Origin: a bacterium
GTDB taxonomy: Bacteria; Margulisbacteria; Marinamargulisbacteria; JABIPA01
Direction: 5' to 3'
Assembly: GCA_018698675.1 (NCBI GenBank)
Contig: JABIPA010000073.1
Coordinates: forward strand, 1-64,000
Length of the DNA: 64,000 bases
Part shown: piece by piece, positions 2,236 through 53,637 of the stretch
Layout of the letters: every line of letters begins with the position of its first letter
Position numbering within the stretch: the stretch's first letter is position 1
Position numbers and translations under genes: made by a program
The notes under the pieces: generated by a model
What the model saw: only the letters and a program-made list of their open reading frames with translations
Databases searched by the model: none
Told to the model about the DNA's origin: nothing

Positions 2236-4011
2236 CTACTTCTCCTTCATTGATTGTACCAATTGTTGAAGTTCAACAAGTAAATTGTTTACGACTTCGT
2301 CATTATTATTATTATTATTATTATTATTTTCTTCCTGTTCAATCTTTTGCTTGAGCCGCTCAACTTCTTCTTTTTTAATCGAGTCTTGTAGTGAGTTAAT
2401 ACAATCTTTCCATGAATATGAGGTAGGTTCATCATATTTATGAGACATATTTACAAAAATCTTTATTAATATTGCTTTGTTTTTTTCTTTTAACGAGTCT
2501 ATAAGCTCTTTTCCAGATAAAGGAATCGATGAAATCTCAACGAATATTTCTTTAAATTCCTTTGTTCTTATTAAGTCGACAGATGCGACGCTGAGAATCG
2601 ATTGTTTTGTTTCTAAATCATTTGCCATGAAGTAGATCAACATCTCTTCTGCTTTGAATTGTTTATTCTCTTTTTGAGTTAAAGAATAGAAATTTTTCTT
2701 TAAATTATAGCTTTTGTTTTTAAGTTTTGCCATCACGAGTGTTTCATCAATTTTAAGTTCTCGAGAAAATTTGGAGACATAGTGTCTAAGTACTATGGGG
2801 TCTGTTAACATTCGAAGGTAAGGGACTAAGTTTTTAACAATCGACGAAATTCCTTGAACGTCTAGAGTCTTTTCTTGGCTTTTGAATGTGTGAAACATAA
2901 AATCGATAGATGGCATTGCATTTTCGAGGGCTTTCGTAAAAGACTCTTTTCCATGGGTGACTAAAAAGTCAGCTGGGTCATTTTCTTTATAGCGAAGAAC
3001 TCGAACATCCATATTGAAAGGAGCGATTAAAGAGATAGCCTTTTGAGCCGCCTTTTGTCCTGCACCATCATTATCAAACGCTAAAATAATGGATTTGGTC
3101 ATTCTAGAAAGGAGACGTATGTGATTTTCTGTTAGAGCGGTTCCCATCGACGCAATCGTGTTAGGGAATCCATTATCAATAATCATAAGTGCGTCGAAAA
3201 AACCTTCCGTCACTATAATGAAACCTGCTTTATTAACATGCTTTTTTGCTTGATCCAACCCGTATAAAACGGAGCGCTTGTTAAAAATTAGTGTTTCTTC
3301 AGAGTTTATATACTTAGCAGGGCTTTGATTCGCGGGAAGAACACGTCCACTAAATCCGACGATTCTCCCGAGATGGTCTGAAATGGGAAACATAATACGT
3401 TCTCGAAACCGTGAATATAGATATCCTTTTTCTGAAAGAACGCCCATTCCAGCAGATTTAATATCTGAGTCGGAGAATCCATGATTCTTTAGGACCGTTA
3501 ATAGGTCATTGTTATTTGGAGAATATCCAACATTATATTTTTGAATAATTTCTGGGGAAAGACCCCTTTTAGTTAAATAATCTGTTTCACCTTTAGATTG
3601 AGAGAGTTGTTGCTTAAAGAACTCTCTAGAATAGACTAATAAGTCCCGTAGCGTTTCTTTTAATTTATCGTTTTCACTGGAAAATCCGGAGTTTTTTGAT
3701 TCGGTCCGTTCTAGTTCGATTCCAGCGTAACTTGCGATGTTTTCAATGGCTTCTTTGAAGGTAAGGTTGTCGATTTTTTGAAGGAAGCTGATAAGGTCGC
3801 CAGATTCTTGGCATCCAAAACAATGCCATAATTTTTTTTCTGGACTAACAGTAAATGAGGGGGATTTTTCTGAATGAAAGGGGCACAAACCGAGATGGTT
3901 TCTGCCCCTTTTTTTCAAACTGACATATTGAGAGATTATCTCAACCATGCCAGGGTAATGTCTTACTTGTTCAATAGATTGCTGAGCAATCGACGAGAAA
4001 GAGTTAGTCAC
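2236..4011 (-). CDS. dnaG: DNA primase DnaG
   Basis: N-terminal zinc finger '[25 protein letters not shown]', Toprim '[11 protein letters not shown]'; poly-Asn near C-terminus. Confidence 0.96.
2302..2328 (-). repeat. (AAT)9 trinucleotide microsatellite inside dnaG encoding nine Asn
   Basis: attattatt... uninterrupted on + strand; protein '[13 protein letters not shown]'. Confidence 0.95.
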
Positions 4012-41073: not shown

Positions 41074-41808
41074 TCAGAAAGTGTCGGTTATTGTTGTTAA
41101 ATGAGATTGTGCCGCTAACGTAACTGTATTGGAGCTATTCGTATAACTCCAATCAACAACGTCTTCTATATGAGTTACCTTATTGCTTTCTTTTGTATAG
41201 GGATTATTTGGGATTTCTGCGATATAAGTTGGGACGAGGTCTGCTGCCCAAGTAGATGTAGGCGGATAGTTTCCGCTGTTATTTTCAGCATACATTCGCA
41301 GTGCCGCTTTAATCGCATAAAGTTGAGCCCATGCATATTTTGATTGATTCTTTGAAATAATAAGAGTCATGTTTTCTGAAACTATCCCTCCTTTTGACGT
41401 ATAGAGTCCAAGGTTAACGCGTACACGAACCCTTTCTTCGTTGTTATCAAAATCATCCCCTGAAAAGGCTACGTAATTAGGGCCCTGTTTTTTTAAAAAG
41501 GTAACTTCCATAATGGAGTGGCCCGTATATCCATCGTCAGAAAGAGCTGTTTTCCATGTTGAAAATGGATGTTCGTCTAGATAGGTGTTGTCGGAATCTC
41601 CCTCCCAAATCCAAAATCCAAGTGTGTTGATTTGAACCAGCTTTTTTTGGATATGCATTTGAATATTATTGTATTCTGTTAAATTTCCATTTGCAGTTAA
41701 AATTTGAAAAAACACGGACAAAGAATAGGTTAGAACTGTTCCTAATATGACGATAGAAAAAATAACTTCTGGTAATGTGAATCCTTTGTTTTTCATTTTT
41801 TGGTTCAT
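41074..41808 (-). CDS. prepilin-like protein with extra GspG-like C-terminal segment
   Basis: 'MNQKMKNKGFTLPEVIFSIVIL' class III signal; 'AIKAALRMYAENNSGNYPP...IPNNPYT'. ORF track extends to 41880. Confidence 0.82.
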   Translation of the reverse strand: MNQKMKNKGFTLPEVIFSIVILGTVLTYSLSVFFQILTANGNLTEYNNIQMHIQKKLVQINTLGFWIWEGDSDNTYLDEHPFSTWKTALSDDGYTGHSIMEVTFLKKQGPNYVAFSGDDFDNNEERVRVRVNLGLYTSKGGIVSENMTLIISKNQSKYAWAQLYAIKAALRMYAENNSGNYPPTSTWAADLVPTYIAEIPNNPYTKESNKVTHIEDVVDWSYTNSSNTVTLAAQSHLTTITDTF

Positions 41809-41812
41809 GATA

Positions 41813-42343
41813 TTAAATTTGAATAAATCCTGTTTCTGGAATGATGGTAATTGTTGATTGCATTCCATTAGCGGTTTCAAGGATTATATTTCTTTCAGAA
41901 GAAAGAGCATCCGTTATCTGGGTAGGATTTTTGCTCTGAAGATCTTCATAAGGAATTCCTTTTTCGTCAAATATAACTTGGTCATCGGTTAATGATGTAG
42001 AAAGAACAGTCATGCCCGTAGGAAATGCGTAGCTATTAATTTCTAGTTCCCACGAATTGCCTGCCGTACTCTGAGTATACATCGAATATGTAGTTGATCC
42101 GGGTGTAAAAATCACTTTTTTTAAAAGCCGTTCGCTCATTGATTCTATTTTGGTGTTTGTTATATCAGTTTTGACCTGAACAGTCCCGGCCTGAATGTTC
42201 ATTGTATCCATGATATCAATTACATTAGGCCGGATGAAAGTTAATGAGATTATCCCTAATATCACTAGAGTAGTTACTAGCTCAATTAGGGTAAATCCTT
42301 TTTTGTTTATAGGTAAATTATAGTGCGATTTTTCCGGTGACAT
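41813..42343 (-). CDS. prepilin-like (GspH-type) protein
   Basis: 'INKKGFTLIELVTTLVILGIISLTFIRPNV'. Confidence 0.85.
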   Translation of the reverse strand: MSPEKSHYNLPINKKGFTLIELVTTLVILGIISLTFIRPNVIDIMDTMNIQAGTVQVKTDITNTKIESMSERLLKKVIFTPGSTTYSMYTQSTAGNSWELEINSYAFPTGMTVLSTSLTDDQVIFDEKGIPYEDLQSKNPTQITDALSSERNIILETANGMQSTITIIPETGFIQI

Positions 42344-42716: not shown

Positions 42717-42822
42717 TTTTTTTTGCTCCTTTTATTTACTTGAAAACTTTATTGTAAAGATACGGAGAGTACTTATCAACAAAATTTTTAAGGAAGTTTT
42801 TTTTTATTTTAAACATGATGTT

Positions 42823-44043
42823 TTAGCCTTGGCTCATAACGGACATCATATTTAACATTGGGGTAAAGATTCCAAGAGCAAGTACTAAAACCAGCATGCC
42901 AATAATTCCTATAAGAATTGGTTCGATGTAAGTAAAGATACGTTCTAAAACATTTTCAACTAAATCACGATAGAGTTGGCTTGTTTTTTCTAACATCGAA
43001 CCTAAATTTCCACTATTTTCCCCGACGGTTATCATTTGTGCTGCCAATCCACTAAAGAAAAAGGTTAAATTACTTGCTTTTCCTAGAGAAAGGCCCTGTT
43101 TGATATTGCTATAGCTTTCAGCGATATCTTGCTGGAAAACTTCGTTTTTGGAGAGTGTTTGTATGATTTTCAGGCTATCTAAAATTGGAATTCCGTTTTC
43201 GTATAATATGGCAAATATTTTCATAGATTTAGAAACAATTAAATTTTTATACATTTCACCAAAGAGAGGCGTTTTTACTAGAATTAAATCTATTTTTGAT
43301 TTCATTTTTTTATTTTTAGATGCGAGAAAGAGTCCTTGTATGATGCCTAATAAAGCGATGAAAAGTATTAATTTGTTATCGACTAGAAAGTTACTAATTG
43401 AAAGTAATGTTTTAGTAAGGATGGGAAGGTCTACTTTGTTGGAGGTAAAAAAGACTGCAAATTTAGGAATGATGAATGTAAAGACTCCAATCATCGCAGT
43501 AAAGCCTACACCCATTACAATAAGAGGGTACCTAAATGCTTTTTGTACTTTTTTTGAAAGCTCTTCGTCCCATTGAAGGAGTTGGTAAAGCGTTTTTAAG
43601 ATCTCGTCCAGTTTACCGACTTTTTCTCCAGCGCTGATTAGTGCGATAAATTCTTCCGTGTAGAGCTCTGGAAGTTCGTTTAGAGATTTCGAGAAACTTT
43701 GTCCTTGTATCAGTTTAGATGTCAGCTGGTTAATTAATTGTTTTAAAGACTTTTTATGTACGATGTTTTCTATTATTTTTAGGCATTCAACAATAGAAAT
43801 GCCTGCTTGAGATAACGATTGTAAATGCGCTGTAAACTGCATGACATCTTTCTTTTCTATTTTTGGCTGGAGAAATTTATTCAATGAAGGCATTAGAGAA
43901 GAGACCTTCTCAACTTTAATAATGACACTTGCTGTATGTTTTTCTAAAATCTTTAAACGTGCATCTTTTAACGACTTTCCTAGGATAGGCTCTTCTTTTA
44001 ATTGACCAGATGCAGTTATGAATTTAATTTTAAAGGTGCGCAT
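42823..44043 (-). CDS. type II secretion/type IV pilus inner-membrane platform protein (GspF/PilC)
   Basis: 406 aa; 'FTAHLQSLSQAGISIVECLKII', 'VGENSGNLGSMLEKTSQLY'. Confidence 0.94.
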   Translation of the reverse strand: MRTFKIKFITASGQLKEEPILGKSLKDARLKILEKHTASVIIKVEKVSSLMPSLNKFLQPKIEKKDVMQFTAHLQSLSQAGISIVECLKIIENIVHKKSLKQLINQLTSKLIQGQSFSKSLNELPELYTEEFIALISAGEKVGKLDEILKTLYQLLQWDEELSKKVQKAFRYPLIVMGVGFTAMIGVFTFIIPKFAVFFTSNKVDLPILTKTLLSISNFLVDNKLILFIALLGIIQGLFLASKNKKMKSKIDLILVKTPLFGEMYKNLIVSKSMKIFAILYENGIPILDSLKIIQTLSKNEVFQQDIAESYSNIKQGLSLGKASNLTFFFSGLAAQMITVGENSGNLGSMLEKTSQLYRDLVENVLERIFTYIEPILIGIIGMLVLVLALGIFTPMLNMMSVMSQG

Positions 44044-44048
44044 TTTGT

Positions 44049-45626
44049 TTAGGTTGCTAAAAATTGGCAGGCTTTAAATACTTCTTCAGGTGTTGTTAAA
44101 CTCATTTTTATTTTTTTGAGACCATCATCTAACATGGATGTCATCCCATTTTCTATGGCAATTTCTCGTAATTGAGACGATGTAACATTGTTGGAAATAG
44201 CGTTAACTAAATTAGAGTTCATCACAAGAATTTCATATATCCCAACACGTCCTTTATACCCTGAGTTAAAGCAAGACTTGCACCCGGAACCTTTATAGTA
44301 AGTGTCTTCTTTTGGCAATTTTAGAAAATCAAGAATGGAAGGATCTGGTTCGTAAGGTTGAATGCATTTTTTACAAATACATCGAACTAAACGTTGCGCG
44401 AAGACGCCGGTCACTGATGAGCTAATGACATAATTTGGGATACCCATATCTAAAAGCCTGATAACTGTACTGGGAGCATCATTTGTGTGAAGAGTACTAA
44501 ATACTAAGTGGCCGGTTAAAGAAGCACGGGCTGCTAATTCAGCGGTCTCTAAATCTCTAATTTCTCCAACCATTATGATGTCAGGGTCTTGTCTTAAAAT
44601 TGACCGAAGACCTCTTGCAAATGTTAGCCCCGATTTATTTTGAACTTGAACTTGCCGAATTAGAGGGAGTTTATATTCAACAGGATCTTCAAGCGTAATA
44701 ATATTGTGTTTTACATCGTTAATATGATTTAAGGCAGCGTAAAGCGTCGTTGTTTTTCCTGAACCGGTTGGCCCCGTGACTAATATCATTCCTTGAGTGT
44801 TTCCAATGAGTCGATAGCAGTTTTCTAAGTCTTTACCTAGAAAGCCTAATTCTTTCATTTCCAGTAACACTTCTTGTCGTCCTAAAATACGAATAACAAT
44901 ATTTTCTCCGTGAATCGTGGGTAACGATGAAACTCTTAGCTCGTAGAAAACATTTTCATGGCTGACTCGAATATTTCCGTCCTGAGGTAGACGACTTTCG
45001 GCAATATCCATGTTTGCCATTACTTTTATTCGGGATACGATTGGAGGTAAATATTTTTTTGGAAAAGTACGAAGTTTATGAAGGGTTCCATCAACCCGCG
45101 TTCGAACAAGCACTTCTTTTTCGCTAGGTTCGATATGGATATCGGAGGCATGACTAATAATTGCTTGATTAATAAGTAAGTTAACAAGTTCTATTATCGG
45201 GCCTTCGTCTTCAATTTTGTCGTCGAGAACCGCATTCTCTAATTTTTCTTTTGTTGTGACATCAAAGTCTGTTTCTTCTTCAGAAACAAGGGCGTCAATG
45301 GAGCCCATAAATCCATAATATCGGCGTATAGCGACTTTAATATCTTCTTTTTTAGCAAGGACTGTTTCAACGGAGTACCCAATTTGTTCTTGAATGGAAT
45401 CTATGAGGGGGAGGTTGTCTGGGTCTGAGAGAGCAATTGTGACCGTATTTCCAATTTTAAATACGGGCATGAATTCGAATTGTGTGACAATATTTCCGGA
45501 AATTTCCTGGATTAGATGTTCGTCTATTAAAAACGTAGAAAGATCTATAGATAGCAAATCCTTATCGGGCATTTTGGTCAATTCCTTTTTAATTCTATTA
45601 CTTGAAAGTTGTTGATATACTAACAT
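44049..45626 (-). CDS. type II secretion/type IV pilus assembly ATPase (GspE/PilB)
   Basis: 'GMILVTGPTGSGKTTTLYAALNHIN', 'RQDPDIIMVGEIRDLETAELAARASLTGHLVFSTLHTNDA', tetracysteine 'CICKKC...CKSC'. Confidence 0.96.
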   Translation of the reverse strand: MLVYQQLSSNRIKKELTKMPDKDLLSIDLSTFLIDEHLIQEISGNIVTQFEFMPVFKIGNTVTIALSDPDNLPLIDSIQEQIGYSVETVLAKKEDIKVAIRRYYGFMGSIDALVSEEETDFDVTTKEKLENAVLDDKIEDEGPIIELVNLLINQAIISHASDIHIEPSEKEVLVRTRVDGTLHKLRTFPKKYLPPIVSRIKVMANMDIAESRLPQDGNIRVSHENVFYELRVSSLPTIHGENIVIRILGRQEVLLEMKELGFLGKDLENCYRLIGNTQGMILVTGPTGSGKTTTLYAALNHINDVKHNIITLEDPVEYKLPLIRQVQVQNKSGLTFARGLRSILRQDPDIIMVGEIRDLETAELAARASLTGHLVFSTLHTNDAPSTVIRLLDMGIPNYVISSSVTGVFAQRLVRCICKKCIQPYEPDPSILDFLKLPKEDTYYKGSGCKSCFNSGYKGRVGIYEILVMNSNLVNAISNNVTSSQLREIAIENGMTSMLDDGLKKIKMSLTTPEEVFKACQFLAT

Positions 45627-45658
45627 TTAATTTCACTTAAAAAAAATAGGAGTTTCAA

Positions 45659-48016
45659 ATGAACGGACTTAAAAGCCAGTCTGGTTTTTCTATGGTGTTG
45701 ACCTTAATTGTTTCCGTAGTATCTATAGCTGCAGTCGGGGGGCTTGTAACCATTATCCAAAATGAGACGGCTACAGTTGAGGCCGTGTCAGAAAACTATA
45801 AAGCGGCTGATATTGCCGAAGTTGGGATGGAAACAATTCTTTCCTCCTTAACCGACGATATGGATTGGTCTGACAATGAGGTTACAAGTTCAAATGCTTA
45901 TCAAGATGGAACTTATGAGGTGACGTTATCACAAAGGGAAACTCACTCGGTATTAGTTACAAGTATCGGGAAATATAAAGATGATACTTATGAAATGGAA
46001 CGATTGGTAAAGAGGCCAATTACGATGGCAAGAGATGTCGTTGTTTCTGTAGACAATGCAAATTTAACGCGTAGAAGTAAACATTTATCGCCTTTTGATG
46101 TCATAAATAACGGGACGATTACTGCTGAAATTGAAAAGGTAATCGTTTCATGGTCTTATGAACCGGCAGATGGTCCTGGGACTACGAAAATAAAGGAAAT
46201 TGAATTGGATGGATCTGACCTGTGGAACCCACCTAATACCGGAAGTCCTTCTGTAGATTCTTATTCTGGACAAATGTTGACGTTTAATTCTGTGGCATCT
46301 ATTGCGCCTGGAACTTCAGAGCCGTTTAAATTTAAGTTTTCGTCCTCGATTACTGGAAAGGTTGTTTCTGTTATTTTTTTCTTTACGGATGGCTCTCAGA
46401 TCGCAGGGGATTTTGAAACTATGGGTGGAACACAAGCCCAGCGGATGAATATAGATTCCGATGAAGCAGAGTTTAGTGAAGATGGTAAAACAATAAGTAA
46501 TATCAATCTGGAAAATGTAGGGAATACAACAATTTACGTATACAACATAACTCCAAGTTGGGAATATGAGGAACCTGAGGCAAACATTAAACTTGTGAAA
46601 TTTGATACGAGAACGGCGTGGTCTGGAACTAAAGCCTCTGGGGTAAAACTATCAACGAACACGTCTTACACTGAAATGGTAGAAGCTCAGACCAAAGAGG
46701 TAACCTTGGTTTTTGATGAAAGTATGGTTTATAAAAAAATCGATGTTCTTTTTGAAATGACGGATTTTTCCACAAAAAATATTAGTATAGATAACAGAAT
46801 CGATCAGGCGTCTAATCTTGAAGTCGATGATTCAGATGCTAAAATTATAGGGGATACGATAAGCGGTATCTCGGTAGATAATAGTCATTCTGATCCAACG
46901 AACGCAGTAGTATGGATAGATTCAATTAAAGTTGAAATGGATCCTGATACGGGACAAACCGTTAGCGGTGTTGAAATTGATGGAGAGAGCGTATTGGCTT
47001 CTTCGGGGCAGGCTTTAAATTCCTTTTTTGAAATTTCAAGAACAGGGATTACTTCCGAAATGGATATAAATTTGTCGTTTTCAGATTTGGGGGACGAGGC
47101 CTCTGTTACGATATCCTTTAAAATGAGAGATGAGACGATAAAGATACAAAGTTTTGATGTCGTGAAAGGATCGTCTGTAGCAGAGTCTGTGGGGGTTAAC
47201 GGAGAGTTTGCTCGGATTTCAAATAGTCGAAAAAATCTATATAACGTTAAACTGAAAAACTCGTCGAATGCGGCGATTAGCGTTACTCACTTATTACCTA
47301 TATGGAATCCAACAGATGGGAAACGCATAAAGAAAGTTTATATTGATGGAACTAGAGTTTATTCGAATAATTCGGGAGACGAATCTGGTGAACTGCTAAC
47401 CTTTAGTTCTTCGGGCATTATCCCAGCGTATTCTACCGACACAGAAGTTAAGCTTGAATTCAACGATGATTCCATGACAAATAAAGATTTTGATTTAACA
47501 TTTTCTTTTTCAGACGGGTCGTCAAAACAACAATATGTCAATCTAAATCCTGCCAATAGTGAGTGGGTGGCAGCAGACAATTTCGAAACAGGTGTCGATT
47601 TTGATGAAGGGGCAGGATTTTCTGGAGATTGGGAATCGAATTATTCAAAAAATAATGTGATTAAGTCTAGTGGACCGCGATATTCAGGTAAGTATCATGC
47701 AAGTTTAAAAGGTGGCTCAAATCCAATGTATATGGAGCGTATGGTAACCAGTTCGGCTCAAACGACCGAGCTGAGTTTGAATTTTGTAAGTTATATAGAA
47801 AAGTATGAAGGAAACGATGATTCTTGGCTCATGACAAAAGTTGGAAGTCTACCGTGGCAGACAATTCATTCTTTTAAAAATCAGGCAAGCCAAGAATATG
47901 TCACTAATAATTTTGTGTTGGCATTGACAGAAGGCGAGTCATTTAAAATTAGATTCGAGTCTGGGGCCAATAAAACGGATGAGCTTTTAAATATCGATGA
48001 TGTCTATATCAAATAA
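45659..48016 (+). CDS. large pilin-like exported protein with tandem beta-sandwich repeats and C-terminal lectin-like domain
   Basis: 785 aa; prepilin-like 'KSQSGFSMVLTLIVSVVSIAAVGGLVTIIQNE'; four diverged repeats of about 115 aa; C-terminal 'FETGVDFDEGAGFSGDWESNYSKNNVIKSSGPRYSGKYHASLKGG'. Confidence 0.8.
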   Translation: MNGLKSQSGFSMVLTLIVSVVSIAAVGGLVTIIQNETATVEAVSENYKAADIAEVGMETILSSLTDDMDWSDNEVTSSNAYQDGTYEVTLSQRETHSVLVTSIGKYKDDTYEMERLVKRPITMARDVVVSVDNANLTRRSKHLSPFDVINNGTITAEIEKVIVSWSYEPADGPGTTKIKEIELDGSDLWNPPNTGSPSVDSYSGQMLTFNSVASIAPGTSEPFKFKFSSSITGKVVSVIFFFTDGSQIAGDFETMGGTQAQRMNIDSDEAEFSEDGKTISNINLENVGNTTIYVYNITPSWEYEEPEANIKLVKFDTRTAWSGTKASGVKLSTNTSYTEMVEAQTKEVTLVFDESMVYKKIDVLFEMTDFSTKNISIDNRIDQASNLEVDDSDAKIIGDTISGISVDNSHSDPTNAVVWIDSIKVEMDPDTGQTVSGVEIDGESVLASSGQALNSFFEISRTGITSEMDINLSFSDLGDEASVTISFKMRDETIKIQSFDVVKGSSVAESVGVNGEFARISNSRKNLYNVKLKNSSNAAISVTHLLPIWNPTDGKRIKKVYIDGTRVYSNNSGDESGELLTFSSSGIIPAYSTDTEVKLEFNDDSMTNKDFDLTFSFSDGSSKQQYVNLNPANSEWVAADNFETGVDFDEGAGFSGDWESNYSKNNVIKSSGPRYSGKYHASLKGGSNPMYMERMVTSSAQTTELSLNFVSYIEKYEGNDDSWLMTKVGSLPWQTIHSFKNQASQEYVTNNFVLALTEGESFKIRFESGANKTDELLNIDDVYIK

Positions 48017-48031
48017 ACTGGGACGAAGTAG

Positions 48032-48562
48032 ATGACCGATAAACAAGGTCTAACATTAGTAGAACTGATTGTCTCTATTTCTTTGATCGGAATTATTTTT
48101 TCTGTCATGAGTCCGATTATTTATACGGCTGTAGAGTCGTTTCGGTCTATCAATACCCATAAAATATATAATCAAGATGCAAGAGCAACTATTTTGTTGT
48201 TTCAAACCTTGTTAGAAAATACAGAACACATTTACACGACGGAATCGGATGAATTTAAATTTATGTCTGACGGAATAGATTTTGATTTTACACTGGCATT
48301 GTCTTCAGGGGGAGACTCCTACGAATTATTTTTAGCGAAGGATACAGGCTCCGATTATTTATTATTGGATAACATTGCAAAATTAACGGGACCTATTCGT
48401 CCAGGTTTAGAGTTTTCATATTTCAATCAAAATCATGAGTCCGTGAGCATAACAACTAATGTTCGAAGCGTTGAAATAGACTTAGTTATGCAAGGGGACG
48501 AAAATCAATATATATTTTTTACGGCCTTGAACGTAAATGCAGATGAAATAGATCTTAATTAG
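48032..48562 (+). CDS. prepilin-like (GspJ/PilW-type) protein
   Basis: 'DKQGLTLVELIVSISLIGIIFSVMSPIIYTAVESF'. Confidence 0.85.
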   Translation: MTDKQGLTLVELIVSISLIGIIFSVMSPIIYTAVESFRSINTHKIYNQDARATILLFQTLLENTEHIYTTESDEFKFMSDGIDFDFTLALSSGGDSYELFLAKDTGSDYLLLDNIAKLTGPIRPGLEFSYFNQNHESVSITTNVRSVEIDLVMQGDENQYIFFTALNVNADEIDLN

Positions 48563-48587
48563 ATGGTATACTTTCGGGGAACTCATG

Positions 48588-48620
48588 TTTAAAGAAAATT
48601 TAAAGAAAATTTAAAGAAAA
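48588..48620 (+). repeat. three exact 11-bp tandem copies of TTTAAAGAAAA directly after an ATG
   Basis: atg-tttaaagaaaa-tttaaagaaaa-tttaaagaaaa-aacaaagcc. Confidence 0.97.
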
Positions 48621-48658
48621 AACAAAGCCGAAGCGCAACCAGTAAAATTGGGATTTGT

Positions 48659-50182
48659 GTGCGGGATGACAAAATATGTGTGGTGAAAACGCCTAAAGAT
48701 TTTGGTGTCTACATATATAAAACACATTTCCATACATTAGACCCCAAATTTTCTACCGCAAAAAATCTAGAAAAATGTATAGAAAAGTTACCGAAGGGTT
48801 TTTTCGAATTATCCGAAGTAAGTATTTGTATTCCATTTCACCAAACTATTAAAAATCAGGTGAATTTCCCATTTTTATCCAGTGAAGACTTGTCCGCCGC
48901 AATTTCAAACTTAATAGATAAAGATGTGGAAGAAGGCGAAGAGCAGCGCTTATGTCAGTATCAGAAAGATGGCCGACCTCACTTAAGTTTGACTATACAC
49001 AAAGTCAAAAAAGAAATTATTGAATCTTATATCAGCGTGTTTGAAAAACATGATATCACCTTAAAAACGGCCACTACTGAGTCGATGGTTATGTCTGATT
49101 TAGCTAAGTCTAGGGTTTTGTCTACTGGAGTCTCTCCAATTTTAGTCGCAGATTTAGATTTTAACGCGTTAAAACTTTATGTCTTTTTGGACCATCAATT
49201 GGTGTATACAAGGTTCGTTCCACTTGGATTTCGTAATTTTTTAGAAGCGGTTACGCGAAAAATTGTTATTGAAAAAAAAGTTACGGAGCTTACCGATAAA
49301 CAAGGGCGAAGTCTTTTAGGGTCTACATATATGTTTAAATCAAGAAAGGCCACGGATAAGGTTCCTTATGACAGATTATTTTTTCAGCTGAGGCCTATTG
49401 CAGAGAAAGTGGCTCTTGAGATAAAAAAGACAATTAACTTTTATATTAAATTAACGGGATCCGAATCTATTAAAACATTGCACACTATGGGTGAGTTTAA
49501 TAATCTTTTTCAGTTTAATACGTTCTTAAAAGAAAACATCGATTTAAAATTAACAAAGGCTGTTTTTAAGGGCGGGTACAATGTCCCAGCTAAAAAAAAT
49601 GATGTTGGGTATCGAGAGACGACATATTTTAGTTTAGGTACAACTAAACGATTAACTAACTTTAATTTATTGCCGCAGTCATATAAAGAACATCAACAGT
49701 CAAAAAAAATAGCGAAAATTATTCTTGTCGTAATGGTATTTTGGATGTTTGTTATGGCAGGCGCGGTATTTAAATTTAAAGAGCAAAAGTTTGCAATTAA
49801 TCAAAACTTGAGCCAACGTAAGAATGAAATAAAAATATTAGAACTTAAAGTTAGTCAGCTATCAAATTTGAAGACGGCTAGGTTTTCGGTTTCAAAAGAT
49901 ATTGATTTTGTTAATAGTATTCTTCAAAGTAAGGTTCCTTTTGACAGAATGGTTTTTGATTTAAGTGAAAGTTCAGTACCACCGATTATTTTAAGGTCTA
50001 TCTCGATAGGAAAGGATGCAATCGTTCTTACAGGAGATATCCCTTCAAAACGAGCTCAGATGTCATTAATTAAATACATAAGTAAACTTGAAGCCTTGCC
50101 TTATATTAAGAGTGTTGTTTTTGATACAAAAATGGAAAACGTCGATTTTATATCGTTTGAATTATATGGGTATTTAAAATGA
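48659..50182 (+). CDS. PilM-PilN fusion (GspL-like) assembly protein; probable native start is ATG 48585 (currently out of frame)
   Basis: N-terminal actin-like PilM region, then TM 'IAKIILVVMVFWMFVMAGAVFKF' and PilN-like periplasmic domain; same-frame upstream codons encode KENLKKKQSRSATSKIGICV. Confidence 0.85.
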   Translation: MRDDKICVVKTPKDFGVYIYKTHFHTLDPKFSTAKNLEKCIEKLPKGFFELSEVSICIPFHQTIKNQVNFPFLSSEDLSAAISNLIDKDVEEGEEQRLCQYQKDGRPHLSLTIHKVKKEIIESYISVFEKHDITLKTATTESMVMSDLAKSRVLSTGVSPILVADLDFNALKLYVFLDHQLVYTRFVPLGFRNFLEAVTRKIVIEKKVTELTDKQGRSLLGSTYMFKSRKATDKVPYDRLFFQLRPIAEKVALEIKKTINFYIKLTGSESIKTLHTMGEFNNLFQFNTFLKENIDLKLTKAVFKGGYNVPAKKNDVGYRETTYFSLGTTKRLTNFNLLPQSYKEHQQSKKIAKIILVVMVFWMFVMAGAVFKFKEQKFAINQNLSQRKNEIKILELKVSQLSNLKTARFSVSKDIDFVNSILQSKVPFDRMVFDLSESSVPPIILRSISIGKDAIVLTGDIPSKRAQMSLIKYISKLEALPYIKSVVFDTKMENVDFISFELYGYLK

Positions 50183-50799
50183 ATAGAAAATTTTGGGCAT
50201 TATATTCGATTCCAATTCGCACATATAGAAAGAGTGTTGCATTTTTAAAACGTCGGTTTACAGTTAGAGAAACTGCAATGATTAGTTTTGGATACTTTAT
50301 ACTTGTAACACTCGTTTTTTCTGCTTTGTATTTTATCCCATATCAGCAAGACTTGGACCAATTACAGTTACAATTTAGAGCGATGAACTCTAGACACTAT
50401 AAGGTATCAAAAACCCTAGAAGCTTTGGCAAAGAACCCGCCTAAAAAGAAAAAGGAAGAACCTATAAAGATCGTGAAGCCTGGTGAATTTTTAAAGCCAT
50501 TAAAAGAACATTATTTATCGACGTTGTTGGCTTTATTTCAACATCATCATTTGGCTTTGATAAAGTCTCAAATTCCACAGCCACTTTCGACGCCAGGGCC
50601 GTTTAGTAAATCTCAAATAGTACTTGAGCTAGAAGGAGAGTATTCTGATTTGGGAAATTTTTTATTTCATTTGGAAGAACTGCCAATGTTAACGTCGCAT
50701 CATTCATTAAAAATCACGCCCATTCCAGAGAGTCATTTAAATAGGATGGAGCTTGTGTTAGATGTTTTTGTGTATCGTCCAACTGAGCCTGTGTATTAA
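50179..50799 (+). CDS. PilO/GspM-like protein
   Basis: 206 aa, one TM then coiled coil and ferredoxin-like domain; position after PilMN. Confidence 0.65.
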   Translation: MNRKFWALYSIPIRTYRKSVAFLKRRFTVRETAMISFGYFILVTLVFSALYFIPYQQDLDQLQLQFRAMNSRHYKVSKTLEALAKNPPKKKKEEPIKIVKPGEFLKPLKEHYLSTLLALFQHHHLALIKSQIPQPLSTPGPFSKSQIVLELEGEYSDLGNFLFHLEELPMLTSHHSLKITPIPESHLNRMELVLDVFVYRPTEPVY

Positions 50800-50800
50800 G

Positions 50801-51202
50801 ATGAAATTAGATAAAAATAGTTGCAACGTGAATAGCAACAAATTAGACTTGGTAAAGGTGAACCCCGTTAGAATAGTTATTTTTGGATTGGCAACATACT
50901 TTTTCGTGTTTGCTAACGTAATTGATGCAAAAGTAAGAATATGGGTAGCGGATCCATTTCGACCAAAATTGGATGTTATTTCACCTCAACAGAACATGTC
51001 ACGGCAAGTAATTTTACCGAGTGAAACCTCTATTGTTGTTCAAGGGATAATGAAAATGGGGAGTAGTTATAACGCAATGATTTCGAATAAGTTTGTTAGA
51101 GAAGGCGATAGTATCGGCGGATTTATCGTGAAGAGTATAGGTAAAGACAAAATCATCGTCCAGGGTTCTTCTGGAGAATTAAGGCAGGTATTATTTAATT
51201 GA
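50801..51202 (+). CDS. PilP/GspC-like protein
   Basis: One TM then 'VVQGIMKMGSSYNAMISNKFVREGDSIGGFIVKSIGKDKIIVQ' HR-like domain; ORF track starts 50762. Confidence 0.65.
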   Translation: MKLDKNSCNVNSNKLDLVKVNPVRIVIFGLATYFFVFANVIDAKVRIWVADPFRPKLDVISPQQNMSRQVILPSETSIVVQGIMKMGSSYNAMISNKFVREGDSIGGFIVKSIGKDKIIVQGSSGELRQVLFN

Positions 51203-52455
51203 ATAAAATAACGCGACTCATCATAGTAGGAATTCTTTTCGTTGTATCTGTAGGAACAGGAATATCGGCAAATGCTGATTCAGAGAAAATAGCTCAGGTT
51301 GAGATGTTGAAAATGTTAGTCAAGGATCCAAAGCCAATTCAGTTGAAGTTTAAGGATACTGAAATTAAGGAAATATTGTCATTTTTTTCACAAGCGTTTG
51401 GCCTAAATATTGTTACAAACCCTAAAGTGATAGGTAAAGTGAGTTTTGATTTTGATAAAATTAGTGTCCAGGAAGCATTTAATTCGGTTGTGATTTCACA
51501 AGGATTAGATTGGCATCTTGATGGAAATGTAATATTCGTTTACCCCCAACAGCCCATCGAGATATTTAATTTAGATTATGCAAAAGCTGAAGACGTTCTT
51601 GATTCTTTGTCTTCAATTGTAAATGAACAAGGGCATATAAATTTTAATGAAGTGGCCAACTCCTTGGTCGTTCAAGCGCCTTACGAAGAGCTGGTCAAAA
51701 TTCGGTCCTTGGTGAAGCAAATGGACGTTAGACCTCGGCAAATATTGGTTGAAGTTAAGATAATGGAGATTCAGGCAGACGGGACAAAAGATATTGGAGT
51801 GGATCTTGGCGTTGACTCCGTAGCCGATTCAAATTTTGCACAAACTGCTGGATTTGCCGGAGATGTTAGAAGTGCATCCCCCAAAGGACTGTTTGTGGAA
51901 GCTATTGCGGGCGACTTTTCTGGAGTTTTGGAGTCGTTAACTACTAGGCAAGATACCGAAGTCTTGGCAACTCCACGTATTTTAGCTCTGAATCACAAAG
52001 AATCCAGTATTATTACAGGGCAGAGGCTGGGGTATAAAACAGACGTTTTTTCTAGTGAAGGGACGTTGTTAAGCGAGGCTGTTGAATTTTTAGAGGTTGG
52101 AACGAAACTAACGTTTACTCCTCATATTTCTTCAAATGGCGAGGTAATTATGGATATTAAACCCGAAGTGTCTGAAGGTGATATTATTGATGGAATCCCT
52201 CAAGAAGACACGACGGAAACTACTGCAACTGTTTTGGTTAAAGATGGTCAAACAATAATGATTAGTGGATTGATTAGAGAGCGAACTAGACAGTCTGTCT
52301 CCGGTGTTCCCATATTAATGGACCTTCCATTTGTTGGCGGTGTTTTTAGGAATACAAGTGATTTAACTCAAAAAAGGGAAACGGTAGTTTTTATTACGCC
52401 GCATATTATTGATATAGATAATCCAGTTATACTTCAAAAGACCAATCTTTTATAA
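51199..52455 (+). CDS. secretin (GspD/PilQ family)
   Basis: 'QILVEVKIMEIQADGTKDIGVDLG', 'VLVKDGQTIMISGLIRERTRQSVSGVPILMDLPFVGGVFRNTSDLTQKRETVVFITPHII'. Confidence 0.94.
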   Translation: MNKITRLIIVGILFVVSVGTGISANADSEKIAQVEMLKMLVKDPKPIQLKFKDTEIKEILSFFSQAFGLNIVTNPKVIGKVSFDFDKISVQEAFNSVVISQGLDWHLDGNVIFVYPQQPIEIFNLDYAKAEDVLDSLSSIVNEQGHINFNEVANSLVVQAPYEELVKIRSLVKQMDVRPRQILVEVKIMEIQADGTKDIGVDLGVDSVADSNFAQTAGFAGDVRSASPKGLFVEAIAGDFSGVLESLTTRQDTEVLATPRILALNHKESSIITGQRLGYKTDVFSSEGTLLSEAVEFLEVGTKLTFTPHISSNGEVIMDIKPEVSEGDIIDGIPQEDTTETTATVLVKDGQTIMISGLIRERTRQSVSGVPILMDLPFVGGVFRNTSDLTQKRETVVFITPHIIDIDNPVILQKTNLL

Positions 52456-52821
52456 GAGAGAATTAATGACCTCGAGTAATTCTTGGTCGTTAAATGGTTT
52501 AGTTAAATATTTATCGGCCCCACTTTGCAGTCCCATGGTTCTGTCCATGTCTTGAGAGAGTGCCGATAACATAACTACAGGGATGTTCTGATATTTTTCA
52601 TCAAATTTAAGTAATTTACATATTTTAAAGCCGTCAATTGAAGGCAACATGGCATCCAGGATAATTAAATTTGGAAATTCTTCGCGAGCTTTTTGAAGGC
52701 CTTCTTTTCCGTCATTTGCAGTAGAAACCTCAAATCCATTAAATTCAAGACGCATTTTTACAACTTGTACAAAGTCTTCTTCGTCGTCAACAATTAGTAT
52801 TTTATTTTTTAGCATGATCAA
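52450..52821 (-). CDS. single-domain response regulator
   Basis: 'ILIVDDEEDFVQVVKMRLEFNGFEV...LIILDAMLPSIDGFKIC...VVMLSA...GADKYLTKPF'. Confidence 0.95.
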   Translation of the reverse strand: MIMLKNKILIVDDEEDFVQVVKMRLEFNGFEVSTANDGKEGLQKAREEFPNLIILDAMLPSIDGFKICKLLKFDEKYQNIPVVMLSALSQDMDRTMGLQSGADKYLTKPFNDQELLEVINSLL

Positions 52822-52827
52822 ATTCTC

Positions 52828-53637
52828 CTAATTTTTTCTTTTTGGAAGCGTTACGACTACTTCAATACCTTTTTCTGAAATAGTATTTATTTCTAGTGTA
52901 CCTTTGTGCATCATAACAATTCCCTTACTAATTGGAAGCCCTAGTCCTAGTCCTTGATACCCTGAACGAGGAGATCTTCCATCTTGCCTGAAAATTTCAA
53001 GTAAGAGGTTTACATTTTTTGGAGTGGGACTATTTCCTATATCTTGTAGACGTATTTCAACACAGTTTGGTAAATCGTTCAACATAATTTGCACGGATCC
53101 TCCATCTTTTATAAATCGAATTGAGTTAGAGATAATATTATTAAACACAATTTCCATTTTTAGTTTATCAAGTTCAACCATTAGTGGGGTTTCTGGTGAT
53201 TGAAATAAGGTTTTTATTATTATTTTTTTGCCTTCGGCAACTTTTTTATATTTGGCACAGATTGAAGATATAAATTCCTTGATGTTTAAGTCAGCATAGA
53301 CCAATTTTATTCTATTTGATTCAATTTCGGACATTAGAACGAGGTCTGTTACTAGCTTATCTAGACGAAGGTAGTTTTTTTCTGCGATAAGCATGATTTG
53401 TTTTTGTTCTGGCGTTAAAGGGCCTTTTACTTCATCTGTTATTAAATATATACATTCTTTAATAATTGCTAAGGGAGTTCTTAATTCATGCGATACGGTG
53501 GATAGAAAGGTGGTTTGGTAAGACAATTCGGTAATCTCTTGAATTAGAGACTCTATATCAGTTTTTTTGACTGTTTTTATGATAAGGAACTTGTTTAGTT
53601 TGTTAAATAGTTCTCTAAGTTTTGTAAATATTCTCAT
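52828..53637 (-). CDS. sensor-less histidine kinase
   Basis: H-box 'FLSTVSHELRTPLAIIKE', G2 'GLGLGLPISKGIV'; no TM or sensor domain in 269 aa. Confidence 0.92.
   Translation of the reverse strand: MRIFTKLRELFNKLNKFLIIKTVKKTDIESLIQEITELSYQTTFLSTVSHELRTPLAIIKECIYLITDEVKGPLTPEQKQIMLIAEKNYLRLDKLVTDLVLMSEIESNRIKLVYADLNIKEFISSICAKYKKVAEGKKIIIKTLFQSPETPLMVELDKLKMEIVFNNIISNSIRFIKDGGSVQIMLNDLPNCVEIRLQDIGNSPTPKNVNLLLEIFRQDGRSPRSGYQGLGLGLPISKGIVMMHKGTLEINTISEKGIEVVVTLPKRKN

Follow-up and report, generated by a model that had tools for sequence, protein, structure and literature searches.

A gene for a predicted GspL-like component of a secretion or pilus machine carries, directly after its probable start codon, three perfect copies of an 11-bp unit that place this codon out of frame with the remainder of the gene. 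The frame break likely originated in the slipped-strand gain of one unit, and the reading that we prefer, with modest confidence, is that of a loss-of-function mutation that arose recently and incidentally, though it may have been selected, in a dispensable system, rather than that of an evolved switch.

Repeat array and reading frame

Within the window (the whole 64,000-nucleotide stretch of DNA analysed here), the locus reads CGGGGAACTC, ATG 48585, TTTAAAGAAAA three times and then AACAAAGCC on the + strand. The array spans positions 48588-48620, its individual copies lying at 48588-48598, 48599-48609 and 48610-48620, and with 100% matches and a score of 66 it is the top array reported by Tandem Repeats Finder for the window. 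Its self-match run is 22 bases long, a length reached in 0 of 100 dinucleotide shuffles (best shuffle 16), and the array is beyond chance. When perfect arrays were required to have near-2 copies at least and a match run of 14 upwards, no other with a unit exceeding 3 bp turned up in a 260-kb sample of the same genome, and a search of the 2.49-Mb assembly that tolerated up to two mismatches placed the doubled unit nowhere but here. Perfect trinucleotide arrays, which leave the frame unchanged, were observed as ATT x9 (window 2302-2328) and TTC x11 (L047, 1262-1295). A Shine-Dalgarno-like GGGG (48576-48579, + strand) lies 5 nt upstream of the ATG (48585-48587, + strand); the initial annotation had described an ATG with Shine-Dalgarno spacing followed by three exact 11-bp copies, and both the sequence and the coordinates agree with it. 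A promoter-like match at 48543-48572 was discarded, such matches being at chance level (22 found versus 24.7 expected).

Read from ATG 48585, the three-copy allele encodes MFKENLKKI and ends after nine codons at a TAA (48612-48614, + strand), and removal of one copy joins this ATG to the PilM frame, the two-copy allele reading MFKENLKKKQSRSATSKIGICVRDD...; translation of the two alleles bears out the initial annotation on both points. Its further claim that five copies would be ON again did not survive, since the translated alleles with n=3, 4, 5 and 6 copies all give MFKENLKKI and stop at codon 10. The stop is formed where the third copy begins, within the array, and for this reason every allele with at least three copies is OFF. 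With n=0 and n=1 copies the ATG is likewise out of frame, so that two is the sole ON copy number among 0-6, frames beyond the internal stop not being counted. Typical phase-variable arrays regain the frame at each third copy number. The reading frame of the present array does depend on copy number, as in slipped-strand phase-variable loci; several ON and OFF copy numbers, a feature typical of evolved arrays and not strictly required of them, were not found.

According to the mechanism that we propose, the working form of the gene would probably have had two 11-bp units directly after the ATG, to which replication slippage would have added a third. The third unit would throw the start codon out of frame and end translation after nine codons, as the translated allele shows, and the result would be an OFF or nearly OFF allele in this genome, reversible in principle through the loss of one unit. 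Weak residual expression, from the GTG at 48659 or by rare -1 frameshifting, would be possible.

Encoded product, gene cluster and sister species

The open GspL-like frame (48593-50182, + strand) holds 529 codons and a stop, with no canonical start before GTG 48659, and the product of 48585-50182 is predicted to be a GspL-like (fused PilM-PilN) cytoplasmic/inner-membrane component of a T2SS or type IV pilus-like machine. The frame is laid out as a PilM domain, a membrane helix and a PilN-like C-terminal tail, and its length, its hydrophobic stretch and the gene order point to a PilM-PilN fusion. The protein resembles GspL and PilM-PilN of T2SS and type IV pili in its PilM-like domain, membrane helix and C-terminal domain, and its gene, like theirs, sits between a pseudopilin gene and genes for PilO, PilP and secretin. 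Unlike curated members of these families it is divergent and lies under their cut-offs: the match to Pfam PilM_2 is 5.1e-5 (22.8 bits versus a curated cut-off of 27) and that to TIGR01175 is 1.7e-9 (37.2 bits versus a curated cut-off of 133). Homology at the level of PilM profiles was found, a four-sequence profile matching the solved PilM 3jc8 at 2.5e-10, as was a conserved neighbourhood, the order pseudopilin, PilM, PilO, PilP and secretin recurring in L003/L031. A second PilM of this genome is located on contig 29, which also carries another secretin.

On the - strand, the cluster encodes a GspF/PilC-like inner-membrane protein (42823-44043; T2SSF, 2.9e-45) and a GspE/PilB-like ATPase (44049-45626; T2SSE, 2.9e-129), both intact. 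The + strand run opens with an open reading frame for a 785-aa protein (45659-48016) whose N-terminus is hydrophobic and pilin-like and which matches neither Pfam nor NCBIfam; large proteins resembling it sit upstream of the pseudopilin in L002, L003 and L004. An intact pseudopilin with the prepilin N-terminal motif (48032-48562; N_methyl, 1.8e-5) precedes the GspL-like frame, which is followed on the same strand by an intact PilO/GspM-like protein (50179-50799), assigned from its position and a PilO match of 0.0062 that is under the cut-off, by an intact small protein without a Pfam match that is placed by position alone in the PilP/GspC slot (50762-51202), and by an intact secretin, PilQ/GspD (51199-52455; Secretin, 3.3e-41). 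All these neighbouring cluster genes are open, as is the remainder of the GspL-like frame, and the lesion therefore looks recent, although an otherwise undamaged frame also fits a flip-flopping locus or a recoding rescue.

The flanks of the cluster share about 77-85% DNA identity with those of a sister species in the same genus (G001), from which the ~10.8-kb stretch running from GspF to a histidine kinase (42811-53636) is absent, window positions 42810 and 53637 being adjacent there (L063, 2610-2617). An orphan GspG-like pilin gene, with a 73% identical protein, is intact in G001 beside a tRNA-Lys (L063, 2701-3099). Because this pilin remains and the cluster is present in other families of the class, the arrangement suggests that the cluster was deleted in G001 rather than inserted here. 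G001 further lacks two minor pseudopilin genes that lie upstream of the GspG-like pilin (window 41074-42343), apparently through a second deletion. The ~10.8-kb stretch ends with genes for a response regulator and a histidine kinase (52450-53637), which may regulate the cluster. The PilM-like protein was found to have relatives in 6 of the 27 genomes of the class and the secretin in 11 of the 27, some of these genomes being incomplete; the small number of PilM-like relatives, together with the absent cluster and leftover pilin of G001, indicates that the secretion/pilus system is dispensable.

A protein scan of genome contigs for other copy-number alleles gave no relative, a secretin-alignment scan gave four distant loci, and the repeat pattern was found neither in viral contigs nor in G001. 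The comparison of copy number among relatives that the initial annotation had proposed yielded no two-copy allele: the nearest available homologues are without the array and G001 is without the cluster.

Start site and competing explanations

In three homologues of the GspL-like protein (G002, G006 and G023; aligned identity 24-30%), a conserved GI motif is preceded by a short, Lys-rich leader that begins at an in-frame ATG some 10-15 codons upstream. A two-copy allele would give a leader of about 17 residues ahead of IGI, near to theirs in length and Lys-rich character. Since the homologues start equivalently and GTG 48659 comes after the invariant G and I, ATG 48585 is, judging from these alignments, the probable natural start. 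Translation from the GTG (48659-48661, + strand), or re-initiation after the nine-codon mini-ORF, would give a slightly shorter working protein, and this GTG is the first canonical in-frame start, with a GGGA 5 nt upstream; nevertheless, a protein begun there would be missing the invariant G4 and I5 along with half of the first conserved strand, the three homologues begin upstream of this GTG, and its Shine-Dalgarno match is weak, so that we consider its use very improbable. A structure predicted from an alignment of two rows (mean pLDDT 42.9) was left unused; a low-confidence strand at residues 20-24 spans the GTG (residue 23). The gene could also be functional as it is if ribosomes shifted by -1 at T_TTA_AAG (48599-48605, + strand), a slippery-type heptamer of the ATG frame that lies in the second copy; translation would then run as MFKENLKENLKKKQSRS... 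into the PilM frame. This heptamer fits X_XXY_YYZ, lies upstream of the stop and, as in bacterial -1 programmed ribosomal frameshifting, is placed to join two frames, its -1 product entering the PilM frame exactly; moreover, X_XXA_AAG is the most shift-prone motif class in E. coli (PMC4066793). Low efficiency is nonetheless to be expected, given that even the best members of this class, of which U_UUA_AAG is not one, reach ~0.3% without stimulators (PMC4066793), and unlike programmed sites the locus has neither a Shine-Dalgarno-like stimulator adjoining the heptamer nor a structure 5-10 nt downstream, the closest 3' stem beginning ~22 nt away and being weak (z -1.8). Across 159 genes of the genome sample, the in-frame heptamers A_AAA_AAG (31/43 observed/expected), A_AAA_AAA (96/136) and T_TTT_TTA (37/53) are under-represented, a deficit that would fit their being slippery in this organism. 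T_TTA_AAG, in contrast to A_AAA_AAG and A_AAA_AAA, is not avoided (25 observed versus 23.6 expected) and is thus probably not very slippery here; nor is the site conserved, the three homologues, distant relatives, using a plain in-frame ATG. Rescue by frameshifting is in our view distinctly unlikely. RNA polymerase slippage at the A6 run (48617-48622) was ruled out as a rescue because the run comes after the stop.

An assembly artefact, with two copies in the true chromosome, appears very unlikely. The assembly, in 74 contigs, is incomplete, but a comparison of 22 neighbouring genes with G001 revealed no frame break on this genome's side (an internal stop occurs in the G001 copy of one of them), which speaks against an indel-prone assembly. 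In addition, reads are usually longer than the 33-bp array, and repeats tend to be collapsed rather than expanded in assembly. An evolved phase-variation switch, in which slipped-strand mispairing would toggle between two (ON) and three (OFF) copies and produce mixed populations, is a possible but unlikely explanation. It agrees with a unit that is indivisible by 3 and placed directly after the start codon, with the identity of the copies, with the otherwise intact gene and cluster, and with the reversion of tandem duplications in coding regions (PMC4169377). For a beta-lactamase gene, two duplication alleles showed reversion at 9.3e-7 and 3.6e-5, more frequent with the longer repeat (PMC4169377), and because such duplications can revert at ~1e-6 to 4e-5 in another bacterium, reversion is plausible here. 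Against a switch stand the three units with their one ON state and an internal stop in all longer alleles, the failure to find a second allele or a reversion in genome contigs, viral contigs or G001, the lack of a comparable array elsewhere in 260 kb of the genome, and the probable deletion of the whole cluster in the sister species. Furthermore, by published standards a phase-variable locus must be reversible and must switch at some minimum rate when selection is absent (PMC11868660), and on present evidence this locus cannot be called phase-variable in that sense. Of the switch that the initial annotation had put forward, the natural upstream ATG, backed by the homologues, and the slippage origin stand, but the switch itself is not supported, given the single ON state, the missing second allele and the probable G001 deletion. 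We favour an incidental allele, still reversible in principle, because there is one ON state, the units are few, similar arrays were not seen in the genome sample and G001 has lost the cluster, although an evolved low-rate switch would have the same appearance in one genome.

Relation to known switching systems and implications

The locus is like the contingency loci of Neisseria, Haemophilus and Campylobacter in having a 5' tandem repeat whose unit is indivisible by 3 and whose copy number sets the frame. It differs from them in that its array comprises three units with one ON copy number and has no similar arrays in the genome sample, and in that it is known as one static allele. Spontaneous sequence duplications are said to cause phase variation of pneumococcal capsule genes, reportedly in work by Waite et al. 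of 2001 and 2003, whose titles, cited in PMC4022640, would lend a switch some support. The capsule duplications are the closest functional precedent, an intragenic tandem duplication inactivating the gene and the exact loss of one copy being expected to restore it, but capsule switching was reported from cultured strains, whereas here there is a single static allele.

An out-of-frame repeat in one assembled genome is not in itself evidence of phase variation. That a single-ON-state 11-bp repeat switches the entire secretion/pilus machine of an uncultured, probably environmental bacterium via gspL/pilM seems to us quite unlikely; if true, the phase-variable gene would belong to the core assembly platform and would not encode a surface antigen. 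Should the array switch, a single assembly gene would serve to bet-hedge a whole secretion/pilus machine, and would do so in an uncultured lineage, where phase variation has received little study. If instead the system is decaying, which seems likelier, the two species would offer a snapshot of that decay: one has a single slippage lesion in a cluster that is otherwise complete, and in its sister the whole cluster has gone while a pilin gene remains.
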